Below, piece by piece: positions 21,171 to 29,597 of a stretch of 64,000 bases of DNA. The position numbers were made by a program, and so were the translations under genes. The notes below the pieces were generated by a model that was not told the origin of the DNA, searched no databases, and was given only the letters and a program-made list of their open reading frames with translations. The first letter of the stretch is position 1, and each line of letters opens with the position of its first letter. Location of the stretch: positions 186,001 to 250,000 of the forward strand of contig WYAX01000029.1 of NCBI GenBank assembly GCA_011525625.1, in the 5' to 3' direction. This DNA is from Nitrospira defluvii (lineage in GTDB: Bacteria > Nitrospirota > Nitrospiria > Nitrospirales > Nitrospiraceae).

Positions 21171-22565
21171 GATCAAGGTCGTCGAGCCGATCGAGCCGAC
21201 CGGTCGAGAGGAGCGATGCCGGTTGCTCCACGAGGCCGGTTTCAATCTCTTCCGGCTCCCTGCGGAGAGTGTGGCGATCGACCTGTTGACGGATAGCGGC
21301 ACCTCTGCCATGAGCGATTCCCAATAGGCCGGGCTGATGCTCGGCGACGAATCCTACGCCGGCGGCAGGAATGTGTATCACTTCGAGGCGGCGGTGCGCT
21401 CGCTGTGCGGGTATCGGTATGTGGTGTCCACACATCAGGGGCGGGCGGCGGAGCATGTGCTGTGTGCGTCCGTCGTCAAGCCCGGCATGTGTGTGCCGAA
21501 CAATATGCACTTCGACACCACTCGGGCCAACATCGAACATCGGGGGGCCGAGGCGCTCGATCTCGTGATTAAGGAGGCCTAGGATCCGCATTGCGAGCTG
21601 CCGTTCAAAGACAACAGGGATGTGGACCGCCTGGAAGCGACCATCGAACGAGTCGGGCCCGATCGGGTTCCGTTCGTATTGATCACCATCATTAACAACA
21701 GCGGCGGTGGGCAGCCCGTCTCGATGGCGAACATTCGTGCGACCAGCCGGTTGCTGAAGCGCTACGGCATCCCCCTGGTCTTCGATGCCTGCCGGTTTGC
21801 GGAACATTGCTTCTTCAGTAAGGAACGGGAACCCGGGTATGCCGATGTGCCGGTGCGGGAGATTGCCCGGTTGCTGTTTAGTCCGGGGGACGGCTGCCTC
21901 ATGTCGGCGAAGAAAGACGGGTTGGTCAACATCGGAGGATTTCTGAGTGTCAATGATGAGCGCTGGGCCCAGGCGATCACCTGATCCTGGTTGAGGGGTT
22001 TCCGAGCTACGGCGGGCTGGCAGGGCGTGATTTAGAGGCCATGGTCAGAGGTCTTGCCGAGGTGTTGGATAAAGACGATCTGCGGTTCAGAATCAGTCAG
22101 GTGCGTTATCTGGGGGAATTGCTCGCACGCGGCGGGGTGCCGATCCTCCATCCCATCGGGGGGCACGCGGTGTCCCTCAATGCGAGGGAATTGCTGCCGC
22201 GTCTCGAACAACACCGGTTCCCGGCGCAGGCGCTGGCCGTGGCCCTCTATCGTGAGTATGGCATTCGGGGTGTGGAGATTGGATCTGCGTTGTTCGAGAG
22301 GCGGAACCCGGTGACGGGGCAGGCGATCTCTCCAGAACTGGAACTGGTCCGGATGGCTATTCCGCGCCGCGTCTATACGAATTCGCATCTGACCCATGTC
22401 GCAGAATCGGTCGTCGATCTCTTCCATCACCGCGACGCTATCAGGGGACTGGTCATGACCTATGGGGCGCCTCAGTTGCGATACGACACGGCGCGTTTTG
22501 CAGAGGACGTTCCTGTCGGGAATTCATGGCCGGTCGTACGGTTCGTGGGTGCGCCATCGTCATGA
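21145..22565 (+). pseudogene. Decayed tyrosine phenol-lyase / tryptophanase (beta-eliminating lyase)
   Basis: Three reading-frame pieces together cover a complete PLP-dependent beta-eliminating lyase (about 470 residues). The N-terminus reads [18 protein letters not shown] and the first motif is [16 protein letters not shown]. The PLP-lysine region is LMSAKKDGLVNIGGFL and the C-terminal part has GFPSYGGLAGRDLEAM and IPRRVYTNSHL. An in-frame TAG at 21325-21327 sits where relatives have the Trp of MSDxQWAGMM. A second TAG is at 21580-21582. Near 21970-21985 the frame shifts. The full enzyme would split tyrosine or tryptophan to phenol or indole, pyruvate and ammonia. The overall alignment is otherwise intact, so inactivation looks recent. 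Confidence 0.85.
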
Positions 22566-22987: not shown

Positions 22988-24817
22988 ATGGCTTGTGTGA
23001 AGACTTCGCTAGGGCAGGAAGCAGGCATCAACAGGCAGGCCGAGGTGTGCTCGGCTCCATGGTGCCGTTCATCCCGTCGCAGGAACCGCGAGACCATGCT
23101 ACGTTGCTGGCGTGGGGCCGTTGTGGGTGTGGCGACTCTTGTGTTGCTTGGCGTGCTGGTCGTGCCGGCCTATTCGCAGACCGGCCCGTTGCCCCCGCAG
23201 ACCGGCGGCCCGTTGCCCCCGAAGCCGCCGCAAGTGCCTGTTGTGCCTCCACCCGCACAGCCCCCCTCACTTGAGCTTCCGACCCCGACGCCCCCGGGCG
23301 CACTTGAGCAGGCGGCGAAGGGGCCCAAAATCATGGTCAAGGATATCCGACTCGTCGGAAACACCGCCTTTACCTCGCAACAGTTGTCGGAGATCACCGA
23401 TCCCTATACGCATCGAGAGTTGACGGCGGAAGATTTGGAAGCGTTGCGTCTCGCGCTCACCTACTACTACGTCAACCATGGCTATTTGACGTCGGGCGCG
23501 GTGGTTCCGGAGCAGGATGTCGCCGACGGCACGCTGACGATGCAGATCATCGAGGGGAAAATTACGCAGGTCAACGTCGAGGATACCAAGTGGTTCCGGC
23601 CCTCGTATTTTCAGAGCCGGGTGAATTTGGCGGCCGGCCCTCCGCTCCATGTCGAGGCACTCCAGGAACGGTTGCGGGTGATGCAGGTCAATCCTCGGAT
23701 CGAACGGATCAATGCCGAACTCTTACCGGGTGCGATGCTTGGAGAGAGTACGCTGAACGTGAAAGTGAAGGAAGCCAATCCGCTGAAGGCCTGGTTGGAA
23801 TTCAATAACTATCAGTCTCCCGTGGTCGGTGCGGAGCAAGGCTTCGTCACGCTGGCTCACCGGAATCTCCTCGGATTCGGCGATACGCTGAGTTTGCAAT
23901 ATGGTCGCTCGGCGGGGGTCAATCCGATGCTCAATTTTAAATACGAAATTCCCGTGAATCCTCGTGACACGACGGTCGCGTTCCAGTATCGCCGGTTTGA
24001 TTTCGGGGTTGAGGAGTCACCCTTCGATGCATTGGATATCAAGAACAAGGCTCAGATATTCGGCCTTGCGGTCAGGCATCCTGTGATTCGAAAAGCCGAC
24101 GAGGAATTCGCATTGTCGCTGACGGGAGAGCATGCCCGGAACGAGAGCACGGTGGGAGGCGCTCCGCAGGAATTGATCACCGGGTCGCCGAACGGCAAGT
24201 TCCGCGTAACATCGCTCCGCTTCGGTCAGGAATATGCGCGGCGTTCCGCCGAACAGGTGATTTCCCTGTTATCGCGTTTCTCGGTCGGTGTCGGAGCCAT
24301 GGGGGCTACGGCGAACGGCGATCCGAACCTGCCGGATGCGCGGTTTTTCTCCTGGTTGGGCGAAGCCCAGTGGATCCGTCAGCTTCCTCTATGGCGGACG
24401 CAGTTGGTCAGCAGGGGAGTTGTGCAATTATCCAACGACCACCTGTTCCCTCTCGAACAGATTGCGGTGGGCGGCCGGTACAGCGTGCGCGGGTATCGGG
24501 AATTCACGCTGATTCGTGACAATGCCGCCATGTTATCCATCGAGGCCCGCGTTCCGGTGTATACGACGAAGGCCGGCGTCGATTCGGTGTTTCTCGCGCC
24601 TTTTTTCGATTTGGGGCATGGCTGGCAAACGACGGTCCAAACGCCCGGGACGCCCCCCAAAACCTTGGCGAGCCTCGGGGCCGGGGTCATTTGGAATTTT
24701 TGGCGCGGGAGTCATTTCGAACTCTATTATGGAAAACAGTTGAAGCGGTACGATACCGATCGCAACAACCTGCAGGATCACGGCATCCATCTGCAACTGG
24801 TGGTTGAGGCCTTCTAA
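22988..24817 (+). CDS. Two-partner secretion outer-membrane transporter (ShlB/FhaC/HecB family, TpsB)
   Basis: A 609-residue Omp85-superfamily transporter. The N-terminus has a long, Arg-rich extension before the hydrophobic core (VVGVATLVLLGVLVVPAYSQ near residue 53), like the extended signal peptides of two-partner systems. A proline-rich linker follows, then two POTRA domains (first IMVKDIRLVGNTAFTSQQL, second starting near KITQVNVED). A 16-strand barrel runs from about residue 265 to a terminal Phe. The conserved loop-6 motif VRGY is in GGRYSVRGYREF. ATG at 22988 has GGGGAGG 5 nt upstream. It would secrete the TpsA-like protein encoded next. Confidence 0.9.
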   Translation: MACVKTSLGQEAGINRQAEVCSAPWCRSSRRRNRETMLRCWRGAVVGVATLVLLGVLVVPAYSQTGPLPPQTGGPLPPKPPQVPVVPPPAQPPSLELPTPTPPGALEQAAKGPKIMVKDIRLVGNTAFTSQQLSEITDPYTHRELTAEDLEALRLALTYYYVNHGYLTSGAVVPEQDVADGTLTMQIIEGKITQVNVEDTKWFRPSYFQSRVNLAAGPPLHVEALQERLRVMQVNPRIERINAELLPGAMLGESTLNVKVKEANPLKAWLEFNNYQSPVVGAEQGFVTLAHRNLLGFGDTLSLQYGRSAGVNPMLNFKYEIPVNPRDTTVAFQYRRFDFGVEESPFDALDIKNKAQIFGLAVRHPVIRKADEEFALSLTGEHARNESTVGGAPQELITGSPNGKFRVTSLRFGQEYARRSAEQVISLLSRFSVGVGAMGATANGDPNLPDARFFSWLGEAQWIRQLPLWRTQLVSRGVVQLSNDHLFPLEQIAVGGRYSVRGYREFTLIRDNAAMLSIEARVPVYTTKAGVDSVFLAPFFDLGHGWQTTVQTPGTPPKTLASLGAGVIWNFWRGSHFELYYGKQLKRYDTDRNNLQDHGIHLQLVVEAF

Positions 24818-25097
24818 GTGGGACCAACAGTCTTTTCTGCCGGCGCGCTGGCCTTGCTGACACAATCGGACTGCCGCGGAGCGTGACCGGCTGTGTGCTG
24901 AGCGAATTCTTGTTCGATGGCTTGCCCGCCCAGCGGCAGGAGGCGAAATTGCCGATCCGGTCAGGGCCCAATGGCCAGGGCCGAACGGTCGGGTCCGTGC
25001 ACGTGCCACCCATGGGTCGCGGCGGCGTGTGCGTGTTGAAGTTGCGCAGGTTTTAAGGTAAGAGAGGGGGCCTCCCACACACATGAGGAGATTGAGC

Positions 25098-26381
25098 ATG
25101 ATATGTCGCCCCGCCGGGATGCCGTTGTTGGTGCATGGGTTTCTCGCCTTCCTGATGCTTCTGGGCTCAACCGGGTCGATCGCCTATGGACAGGCTACGA
25201 ACATCGTCGCAACTCCACCGGGACCGGGCGGCCTGGGAACGACTCTCAGCACGTCGGGTAATACGACAAACATTGCGGGCGGCACGAGACCGGGCGGTGG
25301 GCCGAACCTCTTTCATAGCTTCAATCAATTCTCCGTCGGCGCCGGGGATGTCGCGGCGTTTGTGAACCCCGGCGGCGTCTCCAACGTCATCAGTCGCGTG
25401 ATCGGAGGCTCCCCCTCCAACATTAACGGTACCGTTCAAGCGCTCAACGCGAATTTGTTCTTCGTCAATCCGTCCGGCATCGTGTTCGGCCCTTCGGCTC
25501 AGTTGAATGTGTCCGGATCTGCGTATTTCAGCACCGCTCAGCAATTACGATTGAGCGACGGCGGAATCTTTACGGCGAACACCGCTCTTCTGGCCTTCGA
25601 CTCGACGTTATCAGTCGGTTCACCGGTGTCCTTCGGGTTTTTGGGGCAAGGCCCCTACGGTTCGATCGTGCTCTCGTCTCCCTCGACAGTGCTTCAGACA
25701 GGGGCTGTGCTCGGTTTGATGGGAGGCGGCATCCAGATCAACGGATCGAAAATCAGCGCGCAGCGAGTCATCGTCGGCAGTACGAGCTCCGCCGGTGAAA
25801 TGAGCACGCAACCGTTTGTCGCAAATCCTTTCTCCGGAGCGGCAGGCGACGGCCAGGTCCAAGCGTTGCCTGGAACGTTGATCGTCGCGGGCGGGGGTGG
25901 CGTGATTCCCCCCTCCATCGATGTGAGTCCGAACCTGACCGTGCCGACGGGCGCACAGATCAACACGACGACGAATTCGTTTACCCAACGTGTGACCCAA
26001 ATTCAGGTCGTGGGAGTGAACCTTGGCGGTCTCGCGCCTCTTGCGACTGCGAATGTGGCCAACGTGAATCCGGCGAATCCGGTCGAGCCTCTCGCCTTCT
26101 TGAATCGTGCAGCCATGGTCCTTCCTCAGGAAGCTCCTGCTCCACCGGCCCCCTTATTGACCAGCCGGTGCGCCGCGCGAAAAGACGGTGCGTTCAGTAG
26201 TCTGGTGCAGGCCTCGCGCGACGTGACGCCGTCGCAGCCCGGACCATCCCTGGCGGCGCCCGTTGTATTGGAGGAAGTCGGTAGCGACGTTGAGTCCGGC
26301 ACGTCGGCGGCACTGACACCGGCGGCACAGAATCAAGCTCGGTCGACCGCACAACGTATGGAATCATGGCAGGGGTGCTAG
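25098..26381 (+). CDS. Short TpsA-like secreted protein (filamentous-haemagglutinin N-terminal TPS domain)
   Basis: A 427-residue exported protein with signal peptide (LLVHGFLAFLMLLGSTGSIAYGQ). The TPS secretion domain follows: GPNLFHSFNQFSVGAGD, NVISRVIGGSPSNINGTVQ and FFVNPSGIVFGPSAQLNVSG. After about residue 290 there is no long beta-helical repeat region. The low-complexity tail contains one Cys (LTSRCAARKDGAFSSLVQ) similar to C-termini of cyanobacterial TPS exoproteins. Normal TpsA proteins exceed 1000 residues, so this is a miniature form. ATG at 25098 is preferred because AGGAG lies 7 nt upstream; ATG at 25083 is the alternative. It lies between its transporter and the CHAT gene. Confidence 0.85.
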   Translation: MICRPAGMPLLVHGFLAFLMLLGSTGSIAYGQATNIVATPPGPGGLGTTLSTSGNTTNIAGGTRPGGGPNLFHSFNQFSVGAGDVAAFVNPGGVSNVISRVIGGSPSNINGTVQALNANLFFVNPSGIVFGPSAQLNVSGSAYFSTAQQLRLSDGGIFTANTALLAFDSTLSVGSPVSFGFLGQGPYGSIVLSSPSTVLQTGAVLGLMGGGIQINGSKISAQRVIVGSTSSAGEMSTQPFVANPFSGAAGDGQVQALPGTLIVAGGGGVIPPSIDVSPNLTVPTGAQINTTTNSFTQRVTQIQVVGVNLGGLAPLATANVANVNPANPVEPLAFLNRAAMVLPQEAPAPPAPLLTSRCAARKDGAFSSLVQASRDVTPSQPGPSLAAPVVLEEVGSDVESGTSAALTPAAQNQARSTAQRMESWQGC

Positions 26382-26398
26382 TCCCCCAGGAGGACGTG

Positions 26399-28870
26399 AT
26401 GGCTAGGAAGCGTACCATGGTCACTCGGCGCGGCATGAAGCGTAGTCATAGGGCTGCAACTCCCGCACGTTCGCGCACACGTTCTTTGCCGTTGACGATA
26501 CTCAGCCTCGGGGCGCTGGCGTTGGGTGGATTCGCCTGGCCCGCCAACGCGGCGGCATTGGAATTGTTGGGCGGCTCAGGCGCGTCGATGACGCCGGCGC
26601 AAGAAATGCGACAGGGCACCGCGCAGTTTCAGCAGGGTGCCTTTGCCCAGGCGGCCACGCACTGGATGAATGCCGCGCGTGAATACGAAGAACGCGGGCA
26701 AGCCAAATTGCAGTGCCAGGCGTTGATCAACGTCGCGCATGCGCTTCGGCAGGAGGGGCAGATCCGTCGCGCGCAGACAACCTTGCAAGCCGCACTCACA
26801 CTGTCCGAGCAAACCGGTGAGCGCGGGCTTACGGCGACGATCCTCGCTCAGCTCGGCAATACCTTCCATGTGCTGGGGAAGGATGAACCGGCTACAGAAC
26901 ATTTGACCAGAGCCTTGACCCTGGCGCGAGAAGAGAACAAGCCCGTTTTGGTCGCCGGGATTTTGAACGATCTGGGTAATGCTCTGACTGCCCGGCGGCA
27001 GTTTGCGGAAGCGATCGACGTCTATGCTGAAAGCCGGACGCGTGCTGTCGAGACCAAGCAGCAGGCGTTGGCGGCGACGGCGCAGCTCAATGGCGCGATG
27101 GCCCTGCTCCAGAACCGGCAATTGGGAGAAGCGCACCGCCACTTGGATCAAGCCTGGTCCGATATGCGGTCGCTCGGCGACGGCCAAGCAAAAACCGCCG
27201 GGTTGTTGAATATCGGCCTTGGGTATCAGGAGTTGTTTGCCGCCATGACCGGAAAAGCCGGTGCGGCCGGGAAAGCCGATGCCGTGAAAGGCCGCGTCAC
27301 GGAGGCCGTGGCTGCTACGGGGTCCGCGGCGGGCCTGTTGCGTCAATCGGCGGATGCTTTTACCGCCGCCGGTGAGGCCGCCGGGCGCGTGGGCGATGCG
27401 CGCGGTCAGTCCTACGCCTGGGGGTATCTCGGAGAATTACGAGAGCGTGAGCATCGCCATCCGGAGGCCTTGGAGTATTCGCGGAAGGCCACCTTCGCCG
27501 CTCAAAAAGTACATGCGCCGGAATCGCTGTACCGTTGGCAATGGCAAACGGCGAGATTGTTACGTGCGGAGGGCAAGGAAGAAGAGGCGCTGACGGCCTA
27601 CCAGCGTGCTGTGACTCTCCTGAAGCCGATTCATTACGAATACTCTGTGGGGAATCAGGGGCGGTATCATTCGTACTACGAATCGGTCGCGCCGTTGTTT
27701 GCAGAGTACGAGGATGTCTTGTTGCGGAGAGCGGCAGCGGCAAAGACACCGGATCAGAACGAGCAGTTGCTCGTCAGGGTGAAAGAGACGATCGAAGTCT
27801 CGCGGGCGGCCGAATTGCAGGACTATTTCCAAGACGATTGTGTTGCGACGGTCGCGAGCCACCGAGGGGCCGGCTCCTTAGCGCCCGACACTGCGGTGAT
27901 CTATCCCCTTGCGTTTCCCGACCGGCTCGAATTGCTCCTGGAAACGGCCAACGGACTGAAGCAGGTCAGGGTTCCTGTAACGGGCGACAAGCTGACGAAT
28001 GAAATTCGTGCGTTCAGGCGGCTGATTCAGGACTCGCAGTCGCAGAATTATCTGGCTTCCGCCCAGGCGCTGCATGGCTGGTTGATTGCGCCCATTCAGC
28101 AGGATTTACAAGGGGCCGGCGTACATACGCTCGTGATGGTAGCTGAGGGGTCGCTGAGGACCATTCCCATGGGGGCTTTGCACGATGGCCGGCATTTTCT
28201 CGTGGATTCACTCGCCGTGGCCGTCACACCGAGTCTCGCCTTAACCGATATGAGTCCCACCCAACGCCGAAAAGGCGGTCTGCTGTCGGTCGGCTTGACG
28301 GAGTCGGTCGAAGGCCAATCCGCTCCGCGTTATGCAGAGAGCGAAGTGCAGGCGATCAGGACGATGTATGGCGGGAAGCTGCTGATGAACAAGCAGTTCT
28401 CTTCGCCTGCCTTGGAAGAAGAGATCAAAGACCAGGGATTGGGCATCGTTCATGTGGCCTCTCATACGGTCGTCGGTGCCGAGGCGAGGGAGTCCTTCGT
28501 ATTGGCGCATGACGGCAAGATCACGATGGATCGGTTGTCGCAGCTGGTCGGACTGCAGCAGTACCGGGAGCAACCGCTGGATCTACTGACGCTTAGCTCG
28601 TGCGAGATTGCGGCCGAGGATGATCGCGCGGCGCTCGGGTTGACCGGCGTGGCCGTGAAGACGGGGGCGCGAACGGCATTGGCGAGTTTGTGGACCTCAG
28701 ATGATGAAACGACTACGGAACTCGTCTCGGAGTTCTATCGGCAGCTGCAGGACCCGGCCGTATCCAAGGCGGTCGCGCTGCAGCGGGCTCAGCAGAAAAT
28801 TCTTGCCCAACGCGGACATAACCATCCCAGTTTCTGGTCGGCATTCCTGCTGATTAATAACTGGATGTGA
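26399..28870 (+). CDS. Exported TPR-CHAT domain protease
   Basis: An 823-residue protein with a long basic N-region and hydrophobic segment ending in PANAAA (about residue 50), indicating export. Residues about 65-440 are tetratricopeptide-type helical repeats (for example ATILAQLGNTFHVLGKDEPA). The C-terminal CHAT (caspase HetF-associated with TPRs) domain starts near residue 500. The catalytic dyad is visible as His689 (HVASHTVV) and Cys735 (LSSCEIA). Start ATG 26399 follows AGGAGG by 5 nt and is 17 bp after the TpsA-like gene, so co-expression is likely. Processing or anchoring of the TPS exoprotein is a reasonable inference; no substrate can be read from the sequence. Confidence 0.88.
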   Translation: MARKRTMVTRRGMKRSHRAATPARSRTRSLPLTILSLGALALGGFAWPANAAALELLGGSGASMTPAQEMRQGTAQFQQGAFAQAATHWMNAAREYEERGQAKLQCQALINVAHALRQEGQIRRAQTTLQAALTLSEQTGERGLTATILAQLGNTFHVLGKDEPATEHLTRALTLAREENKPVLVAGILNDLGNALTARRQFAEAIDVYAESRTRAVETKQQALAATAQLNGAMALLQNRQLGEAHRHLDQAWSDMRSLGDGQAKTAGLLNIGLGYQELFAAMTGKAGAAGKADAVKGRVTEAVAATGSAAGLLRQSADAFTAAGEAAGRVGDARGQSYAWGYLGELREREHRHPEALEYSRKATFAAQKVHAPESLYRWQWQTARLLRAEGKEEEALTAYQRAVTLLKPIHYEYSVGNQGRYHSYYESVAPLFAEYEDVLLRRAAAAKTPDQNEQLLVRVKETIEVSRAAELQDYFQDDCVATVASHRGAGSLAPDTAVIYPLAFPDRLELLLETANGLKQVRVPVTGDKLTNEIRAFRRLIQDSQSQNYLASAQALHGWLIAPIQQDLQGAGVHTLVMVAEGSLRTIPMGALHDGRHFLVDSLAVAVTPSLALTDMSPTQRRKGGLLSVGLTESVEGQSAPRYAESEVQAIRTMYGGKLLMNKQFSSPALEEEIKDQGLGIVHVASHTVVGAEARESFVLAHDGKITMDRLSQLVGLQQYREQPLDLLTLSSCEIAAEDDRAALGLTGVAVKTGARTALASLWTSDDETTTELVSEFYRQLQDPAVSKAVALQRAQQKILAQRGHNHPSFWSAFLLINNWM

Positions 28871-28913: not shown

Positions 28914-29597
28914 CTAGAGCTTCCTGCCGGTCATGATCTCGTAGGCTTCTTCGATCGTGTCTACTTCTCGCACCAGGACCTGCGACTCCAGCGACAGGCT
29001 GACTCTGTTGACGCGAGGCGTGTAGAACTGACCTCGCGGCACCAGCAACACGTGGTAGCCCGCTCGCGCCGCCGCCGTCGTGTGTTCAGCAACCTGACTG
29101 ACTTGTCCGATCCGTCCGCCGTCTTCCAGCGTTCCGGTGATCGTAATGTCGTGCTTCAGATGGTCGCCTTTCAGCAATGCGAGAAAACCGATGGCCAGGG
29201 CCGCCTCGGCCGTCGATCCTTCCGAGCTGAGCGGACCTGAAAACGTCGCATAGAGCGATAAGGTGCCGGTCGGGTGGAGGGTAGGACCAAGCCGTTCCAC
29301 AGCAAACCGGAATGCGTGCTGAATGGATGTCATACCGGTGCCTCTCACCGGAACCTGACTACGTCCCCATTTCAATGCCAGCGGATCGGGTTGGCGACCT
29401 TCGTCCCATTTCATGACGAACGTCGGGAATCCCGACTGAGTGTCCGTGTACGTGGCGACGGAGATAGGGACGACCAGGGTGCGATTGGCAAGGGCCGTGG
29501 AAGGGAGGACCAACAGGCAACCGAGCAACGAGACCATTCCAAAGGTCAACACGTGCGACCGTGTGCCGCTTCTGGGAAATGTGGTGTGCGTGCGCAT
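28914..29597 (-). CDS. Periplasmic Lon-like (S16) domain protein with degenerate catalytic dyad
   Basis: A 227-residue protein with signal peptide (MVSLLGCLLVLPSTALA). The C-terminal 120 residues align with the Lon proteolytic domain: EGSTAEAALAIGFLALLKGD, ITITGTLEDGGRIGQV and AAARAGYHVLLVPRGQ. Where Lon has the nucleophilic Ser of GPSAG this protein has Thr129 in GSTAE. Where Lon has the catalytic Lys of GGxKEK it has Ala170. It may therefore be a non-proteolytic relative. It is convergent with the CHAT gene, 44 bp apart. A functional link to that cassette is only positional. Confidence 0.72.
   Translation of the reverse strand: MRTHTTFPRSGTRSHVLTFGMVSLLGCLLVLPSTALANRTLVVPISVATYTDTQSGFPTFVMKWDEGRQPDPLALKWGRSQVPVRGTGMTSIQHAFRFAVERLGPTLHPTGTLSLYATFSGPLSSEGSTAEAALAIGFLALLKGDHLKHDITITGTLEDGGRIGQVSQVAEHTTAAARAGYHVLLVPRGQFYTPRVNRVSLSLESQVLVREVDTIEEAYEIMTGRKL

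Follow-up and report, generated by a model that had tools for sequence, protein, structure and literature searches.

We found that the exoproteins (TpsAs) of two-partner-secretion (TPS) systems linked to TPR-CHAT proteins end in a shared C-terminal tail, a new feature, and that the tail and the CHAT protein occur together. From their sequences, we lean towards a model in which the CHAT protein would be a dedicated envelope protease that reads and cuts the TpsA tail, releasing or maturing the exoprotein. The starting point was a three-gene cassette in a 64,000-nucleotide stretch of Nitrospira defluvii DNA, here called the window.

Results

Layout and conservation of the cassette

The cassette lies on the + strand in the order TpsB (22988-24817), TpsA (25083-26381) and TPR-CHAT (26399-28870), and so the gene order given by an earlier sequence-only reading of the window stands. 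TpsB is a ShlB/FhaC-type outer-membrane transporter with a signal peptide, a POTRA domain and a barrel (ShlB PF03865, E 4.8e-32; POTRA_2 PF08479, E 2.6e-22), and its ATG at 22988 is preceded by the ribosome site GAGGGGAGG. Since the TpsA stop codon ends at 26381 and the CHAT gene starts with the ATG at 26399, the two genes are 17 bp apart, as that reading had it; the gap holds AGGAGG, the ribosome-binding site of the CHAT gene (26388..26393, + strand). In 21 of 26 genus loci (L005-L033), CHAT and TpsA share a reading frame and are separated by no more than the TpsA stop and a few codons. Read-through of the stop codon from TpsA into CHAT was considered on this account and rejected, because the two genes are out of frame in the window. 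This is the only TPS gene in the genome, which holds 3 CHAT genes, among them just one full relative, that of the cassette.

The CHAT protein is present in 29/29 members of the genus within a set of 61 Nitrospirota genomes, and the order TpsB, short TpsA, CHAT is kept in the genus wherever the assembly allows. TpsA and CHAT are under strongly purifying selection, with dN/dS across the genus of about 0.10 and about 0.08, respectively. Because of these low values and the presence of the neighbourhood in every adequately assembled member of the genus, the cassette is more than a chance arrangement. On its upstream side, a tyrosine phenol-lyase/tryptophanase-like gene (21337-22565, + strand) lies in pieces in different frames, the last piece matching TIGR02618 298-449; it is therefore probably a broken gene. 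On the downstream side, convergent with CHAT, a gene on the - strand (28914-29597) encodes an exported protein of 227 aa whose Lon protease (S16) domain is degenerate; by eye, the catalytic Ser is replaced by Thr and the Lys is lost. This neighbour is kept beside CHAT in 29/29 genus loci at 66-89% identity; we note it and have not adopted it as a member of the cassette.

A short TpsA with a disordered tail

The TpsA of the window has 432 aa (25083..26381, + strand), and its TPS domain (PF05860, E 1.8e-33) was the only domain matched in it. In our AlphaFold2 (AF2) model, built from 36 aligned sequences, the TPS secretion domain (about residues 37-310; 25191..26012, + strand) forms a beta-helix at residues ~40-310 with a pLDDT of ~90. 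The best 23 structural matches were all TPS proteins, and the solved secretion domains of EtpA, HxuA, HpmA and HMW1 were at the top of the Foldseek matches. The remaining ~120 residues (314-432; 26022..26378, + strand) are predicted to be disordered, with a pLDDT of ~30. Taken together, the model and the structural matches indicate that this TpsA is a bare secretion domain followed by a tail, without the usual passenger.

With a POTRA-and-barrel TpsB adjoined by a TpsA that has an N-terminal TPS domain, the locus belongs to two-partner secretion (type Vb), and we propose that TpsA would be secreted via TpsB. TpsAs of such systems range from ~100 to 650 kDa (PMC5422565), and the large beta-helical passenger typical of them is missing from the window TpsA, whose fold stops after the TPS domain. 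The description of this TpsA as very short holds for the genus orthologue group, of which such a length is typical, but it does not carry over to CHAT-linked TpsAs elsewhere, which mostly have 800-1,300 aa; given the long TpsAs in related clusters, we regard the short protein as a size variant.

The TPR-CHAT protein is a predicted exported protease

The third gene encodes 823 aa (26399..28870, + strand; PF12770, E 2.5e-48, plus TPR). It begins with a probable Sec signal peptide with a long n-region, LPLTILSLGALALGGFAWPANA (26399..26551, + strand), followed by a TPR helical array supported by domain matches and AF2 (residues 66-477; 26594..27829, + strand) and a CHAT domain supported by domain match and alignment (residues 553-819; 28055..28855, + strand). 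The dyad of His689 (HVASH; 28463-28465, + strand) and Cys735 (SSCE; 28601-28603, + strand) is numbered exactly as first reported when the ATG at 26399 is used, and it is strongly conserved in the alignment of 51 CHATs. In the same alignment, Cys481 (motif AEL-x-DYF-x-D-x-C; 27839..27841, + strand), upstream of the CHAT domain, is a second invariant Cys of the family. The AF2 model (mean pLDDT 84) consists of a TPR superhelix and a CHAT domain; its best PDB match is Csx29 of the type III-E Craspase, and separase is also among the top matches. With a His-Cys dyad in a CHAT domain and a TPR array, the protein is a clan CD TPR-CHAT and a predicted protease.

Heuristically scored signal-like starts were found in 94% of TPS-type CHATs, 88% of TpsA and 87% of TpsB, versus 30% of other ORFs. 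The CHAT is thus very probably exported, in agreement with the earlier proposal of delivery beyond the cytoplasm. The accompanying premise that CHAT proteins are usually cytoplasmic does not hold in cyanobacteria, where 14/19 other CHATs also have signal-peptide-like starts, and for the same reason export is ruled out as a trait unique to this family.

CHAT and TPS genes are linked in several phyla

The link between TPS and CHAT genes is strong. In the 61 Nitrospirota genomes, TPS genes lie within 8 kb of 58/67 CHAT relatives; the nine unlinked loci include two distant proteins of 2,600 aa and several loci at contig ends. The same genomes hold paralogous clusters in which one to three long TpsAs are followed by TpsB and CHAT, or in which CHAT is divergent from TpsB-TpsA. 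At the genome level, 36 have both, 2 have CHAT alone (one a fragment, the other of a distant type), 3 have TPS alone and 20 have neither.

Among the best 80 CHAT relatives in the genome collection, all cyanobacterial, a TpsA was found in the fetched stretch of 46; it was not found in the stretch of the other 34, some of which end at contig ends. On four cyanobacterial chromosomes, 33/51 of the CHAT ORFs of 810-985 aa among the matches listed have a TPS gene no more than 12 kb away, against 2.5 expected and a maximum of 14 under rotation, whereas for other CHAT ORFs listed from these chromosomes the count was 1/33, with 1.6 expected. Annotated plasmids have the same adjacency. The sequence-only reading had named rarity of the three-gene neighbourhood in other genomes as evidence against itself, and these counts for Nitrospirota and, among the listed matches, for cyanobacteria run the opposite way. 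CHASE2, DUF928 and DUF1822 genes often adjoin CHAT in the cyanobacterial TPS-CHAT loci (L097, L225, L227). A CHAT-TpsB-TpsA operon is also found on two Caballeronia plasmids (L223, L230). The TpsA of this betaproteobacterial operon has, in place of a GRGGLP-type tail, a different one that contains Cys, and so a TpsA can be partnered by CHAT without having the tail described next.

A shared C-terminal tail accompanies CHAT

The tail that ends CHAT-linked TpsAs consists of a Cys, SS[FL], a basic residue, Pro...Pro and a second Cys within the last few residues. Its Nitrospirota version reads R-C-A-A...SS[FL]...RD..P..P, with a Cys among the last residues, and its cyanobacterial version C...SSF...GRGGLP..P, with a Cys close to the end. 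In the window, the conserved motif was aligned at residues 358-393 around RCAARKDGAFSSLVQASRDVTPSQPG (26154..26261, + strand). Cys363 (26169-26171, + strand) is invariant in 36-37 aligned TpsAs, as is the terminal Cys432 (26376..26378, + strand), and the predicted mature protein has no other Cys; between the two lies Arg379 (26217-26219, + strand), a candidate P1 residue. Over 66 Nitrospirota tails, for which the motif was not used for selection and which include one cyanobacterial anchor sequence, the first Cys is conserved in 66/66, the Arg in 61/66 and the two Pro in 62/66 and 64/66. Exactly two Cys occur in the last 150 residues of 66/66 Nitrospirota tails and of 40/44 cyanobacterial tails (no Cys in the remaining 4), and 42/44 cyanobacterial tails have the basic residue. 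A tail profile trained on cyanobacteria scored weakly on Nitrospirota TpsAs (up to ~13 bits), with the stronger cases at the expected place; homology of the two versions therefore rests on the pattern Cys...SSF...GR...P..P.

The tail is present in 60/61 complete CHAT-linked Nitrospirota TpsAs (with a looser motif, in 60/65 CHAT-linked ORFs, the misses being 4 broken ORFs and 1 near-variant) and in 4/4 TpsAs of genomes with CHAT elsewhere. By contrast, it is present in 0/10 TPS proteins without CHAT; the C-terminus of a few of these is incomplete or uncertain. In a sample of 98 cyanobacterial genomes spread evenly over the phylum, 26 matched the tail profile and 25 had a TPS-type CHAT, all of the latter being among the 26; the odd genome (G078) has a weak match in an ORF of 157 aa. 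A strong TPS domain with neither tail nor CHAT occurs in six further genomes, and so TPS alone does not explain the match of tail and CHAT. In the 31 TPS-bearing cyanobacterial genomes, which are related rather than independent, tail and CHAT are concordant in 31/31 (both in 25, neither in 6), and p-values for this agreement exaggerate how independent the genomes are. Since the CHAT-less TPS proteins are also divergent in their TPS domains and the genomes are not independent, the tail could instead mark the clade formed by this TpsA subfamily and have been carried along with CHAT.

In some clusters, one CHAT is accompanied by two or three tail-bearing TpsAs. Between such tandem TpsAs (medians taken by hand over the 11 pairs listed), identity is ~0.75 in the TPS domain and ~0.72 in the tail motif, against ~0.39 in the passenger and ~0.30 in the last 60 residues. 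Thus the first and last modules are conserved while the passengers diverge: TpsB would read the first, and CHAT, present once per cluster, would be the natural reader of the second.

Discussion

Based on these findings, we propose a mechanism for the processing of TpsA. TpsB would recognise the N-terminal TPS domain and thread TpsA outward, and the disordered tail would leave last, its two conserved Cys possibly forming a disulfide hook that stalls TpsA in the TpsB pore. Because secretion runs from N to C, the tail is the part that would still be periplasmic when a Sec-exported protease can meet TpsA. Extended peptides are commonly held by TPRs, and the exported TPR-CHAT may bind the tail in this way. 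The caspase-like site of CHAT would then cut the tail, most likely near Arg379, which would mature the exoprotein or lead to its release rather than its anchoring. Clan CD enzymes often cleave after basic residues, which makes Arg379 a candidate; we nevertheless hold this exact position to be doubtful. The earlier suggestion that the protease processes or releases the exoprotein gains specific support from a C-terminal tail that tracks CHAT. The gene order kept within the genus, the size-specific linkage in cyanobacteria and the TpsA-CHAT fusions described below also count in favour of the proposed mechanism.

In another reading, CHAT would itself be the cargo, and the TPS system or a TpsA scaffold would present the protease at the surface, where it would cut external proteins or those of neighbouring cells. 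Fusion proteins speak for this: in Acaryochloris marina, one polypeptide of 1,756 aa runs from TPS and beta-helix through the tail motif to TPR-CHAT, and a TPS-CHAT fusion in Tolypothrix, without the tail motif, likewise has the CHAT domain as passenger. The Caballeronia operon, moreover, lies inside a type VI secretion cluster. The stand-alone CHATs, however, have a Sec signal and no TPS domain, and so would stop in the periplasm, and a tail common to several TpsAs would be unnecessary for such a role; we therefore regard CHAT as cargo as unlikely. As to the fusion genes themselves, the Acaryochloris marina gene (L100:6215-11485) is on a plasmid, with a DUF928 gene upstream and two toxin-activating acyltransferase genes downstream, and the Tolypothrix ORF (L177:2249-7933), in which glycosyltransferase 2, TPS and CHAT follow one another in a single frame, may be genuine or a run-on.

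A somewhat less probable alternative is that CHAT does not cut and serves as a TPR chaperone or plug for the tail, or that it is a transpeptidase joining the tail to another molecule and so anchoring TpsA. The long TPR array, the invariant extra Cys481 of CHAT and the two invariant Cys of TpsA would fit such roles, and clan CD includes transpeptidating enzymes. Nothing, however, points to an acceptor molecule, and the strong conservation of the His/Cys dyad argues for catalysis. The surface sensor-protease or defence role first suggested for the cassette, in which the exoprotein would sense a surface event and activate CHAT to trigger a response, appears improbable to us. Other TPR-CHATs, such as Csx29, are indeed allosterically activated (PMC10028731), but a scan of flanking genes found no gasdermin gene and no Cas7-11, Csx30 or other CRISPR partner, PADLOC returned TPR and no defence model beyond it for the cassette, and the cassette is kept stably throughout the genus instead of being patchy. 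That the genes are neighbours by chance or by inherited order, with no functional link, is very improbable: close relatives do inherit gene order, but the linkage recurs in different orders across three phyla and as fusions, and tail and CHAT still occur together where their genes lie apart.

Our preferred reading, a protease that cuts the tail, recalls parts of several known systems. SphB1 of Bordetella is a subtilisin-like autotransporter. It matures the TPS exoprotein of the FhaB/FhaC system as a dedicated protease and is encoded away from the locus (PMC5422565), whereas the CHAT gene lies within the cassette. The TPS adhesin CdrA of Pseudomonas aeruginosa is held in CdrB by a C-terminal cysteine hook (PMC7616799), and its periplasmic C-terminal tail is cut by the periplasmic cysteine protease LapG (PMC5422565, PMC4694147). 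We propose a likeness in that the window also combines a TPS protein, a C-terminal Cys (here one of two that are invariant and may form such a hook) and an envelope cysteine protease that would cut the tail. However, LapG is transglutaminase-like and controlled by c-di-GMP, while the cassette encodes its own, unrelated TPR-CHAT (PF12770), outside the LapG family. Csx29, the closest solved fold to the window CHAT, is a TPR-CHAT that recognises the C-terminal domain of the neighbouring gene's product (Csx30) and cuts it once (PMC10028731). It acts with Cas7-11 and RNA, whereas the window CHAT is predicted to be Sec-exported and is TPS-linked, with no CRISPR partner nearby.

In the GlyGly-CTERM/rhombosortase and MYXO-CTERM/myxosortase systems, many substrates share one C-terminal signal and one dedicated protease with a matching distribution (PMC3237569, PMC11980579), and it was by reasoning from a conserved signal to a matching reader that GlyGly-CTERM/rhombosortase was discovered (PMC3237569). 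Our data have the same form: a common C-terminal signal, several substrates and the matching presence of one protease family. CTERM signals, however, carry a membrane helix and their enzymes are intramembrane, whereas the tail described here is a soluble segment with two Cys, the enzyme is predicted to be a soluble cysteine protease of clan CD, and neither a hydrophobic helix nor the sortase-type combination of helix and basic cluster was found in the tail sequences. Caspase-like releasing peptidases of clan CD also process exported proteins in polymorphic toxins (PMC3482391), but these are internal autoprocessing domains, while in the TPS-CHAT loci the protease mostly has a gene of its own and the tail is common to TPS exoproteins. 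Tentatively, then, Cyanobacteria and Nitrospirota may share an undescribed C-terminal processing system, in which the two-Cys tail would be the sorting signal and exported TPR-CHATs the dedicated enzymes, each acting in some genomes on many substrates.

Dozens of functionally uncharacterised CHAT proteins occur in cyanobacteria, and many TpsA exoproteins have no assigned maturation protease (PMC5422565); our literature search found no paper linking CHAT with TPS, ShlB/FhaC or filamentous haemagglutinin. The match of tail and CHAT joins these orphan proteins to the missing TpsA proteases, with a specific candidate substrate site. For this Nitrospirota genus, the cassette is core equipment. If the C-terminal processing system proves true, a large group of exported CHAT proteins would gain its first known function.
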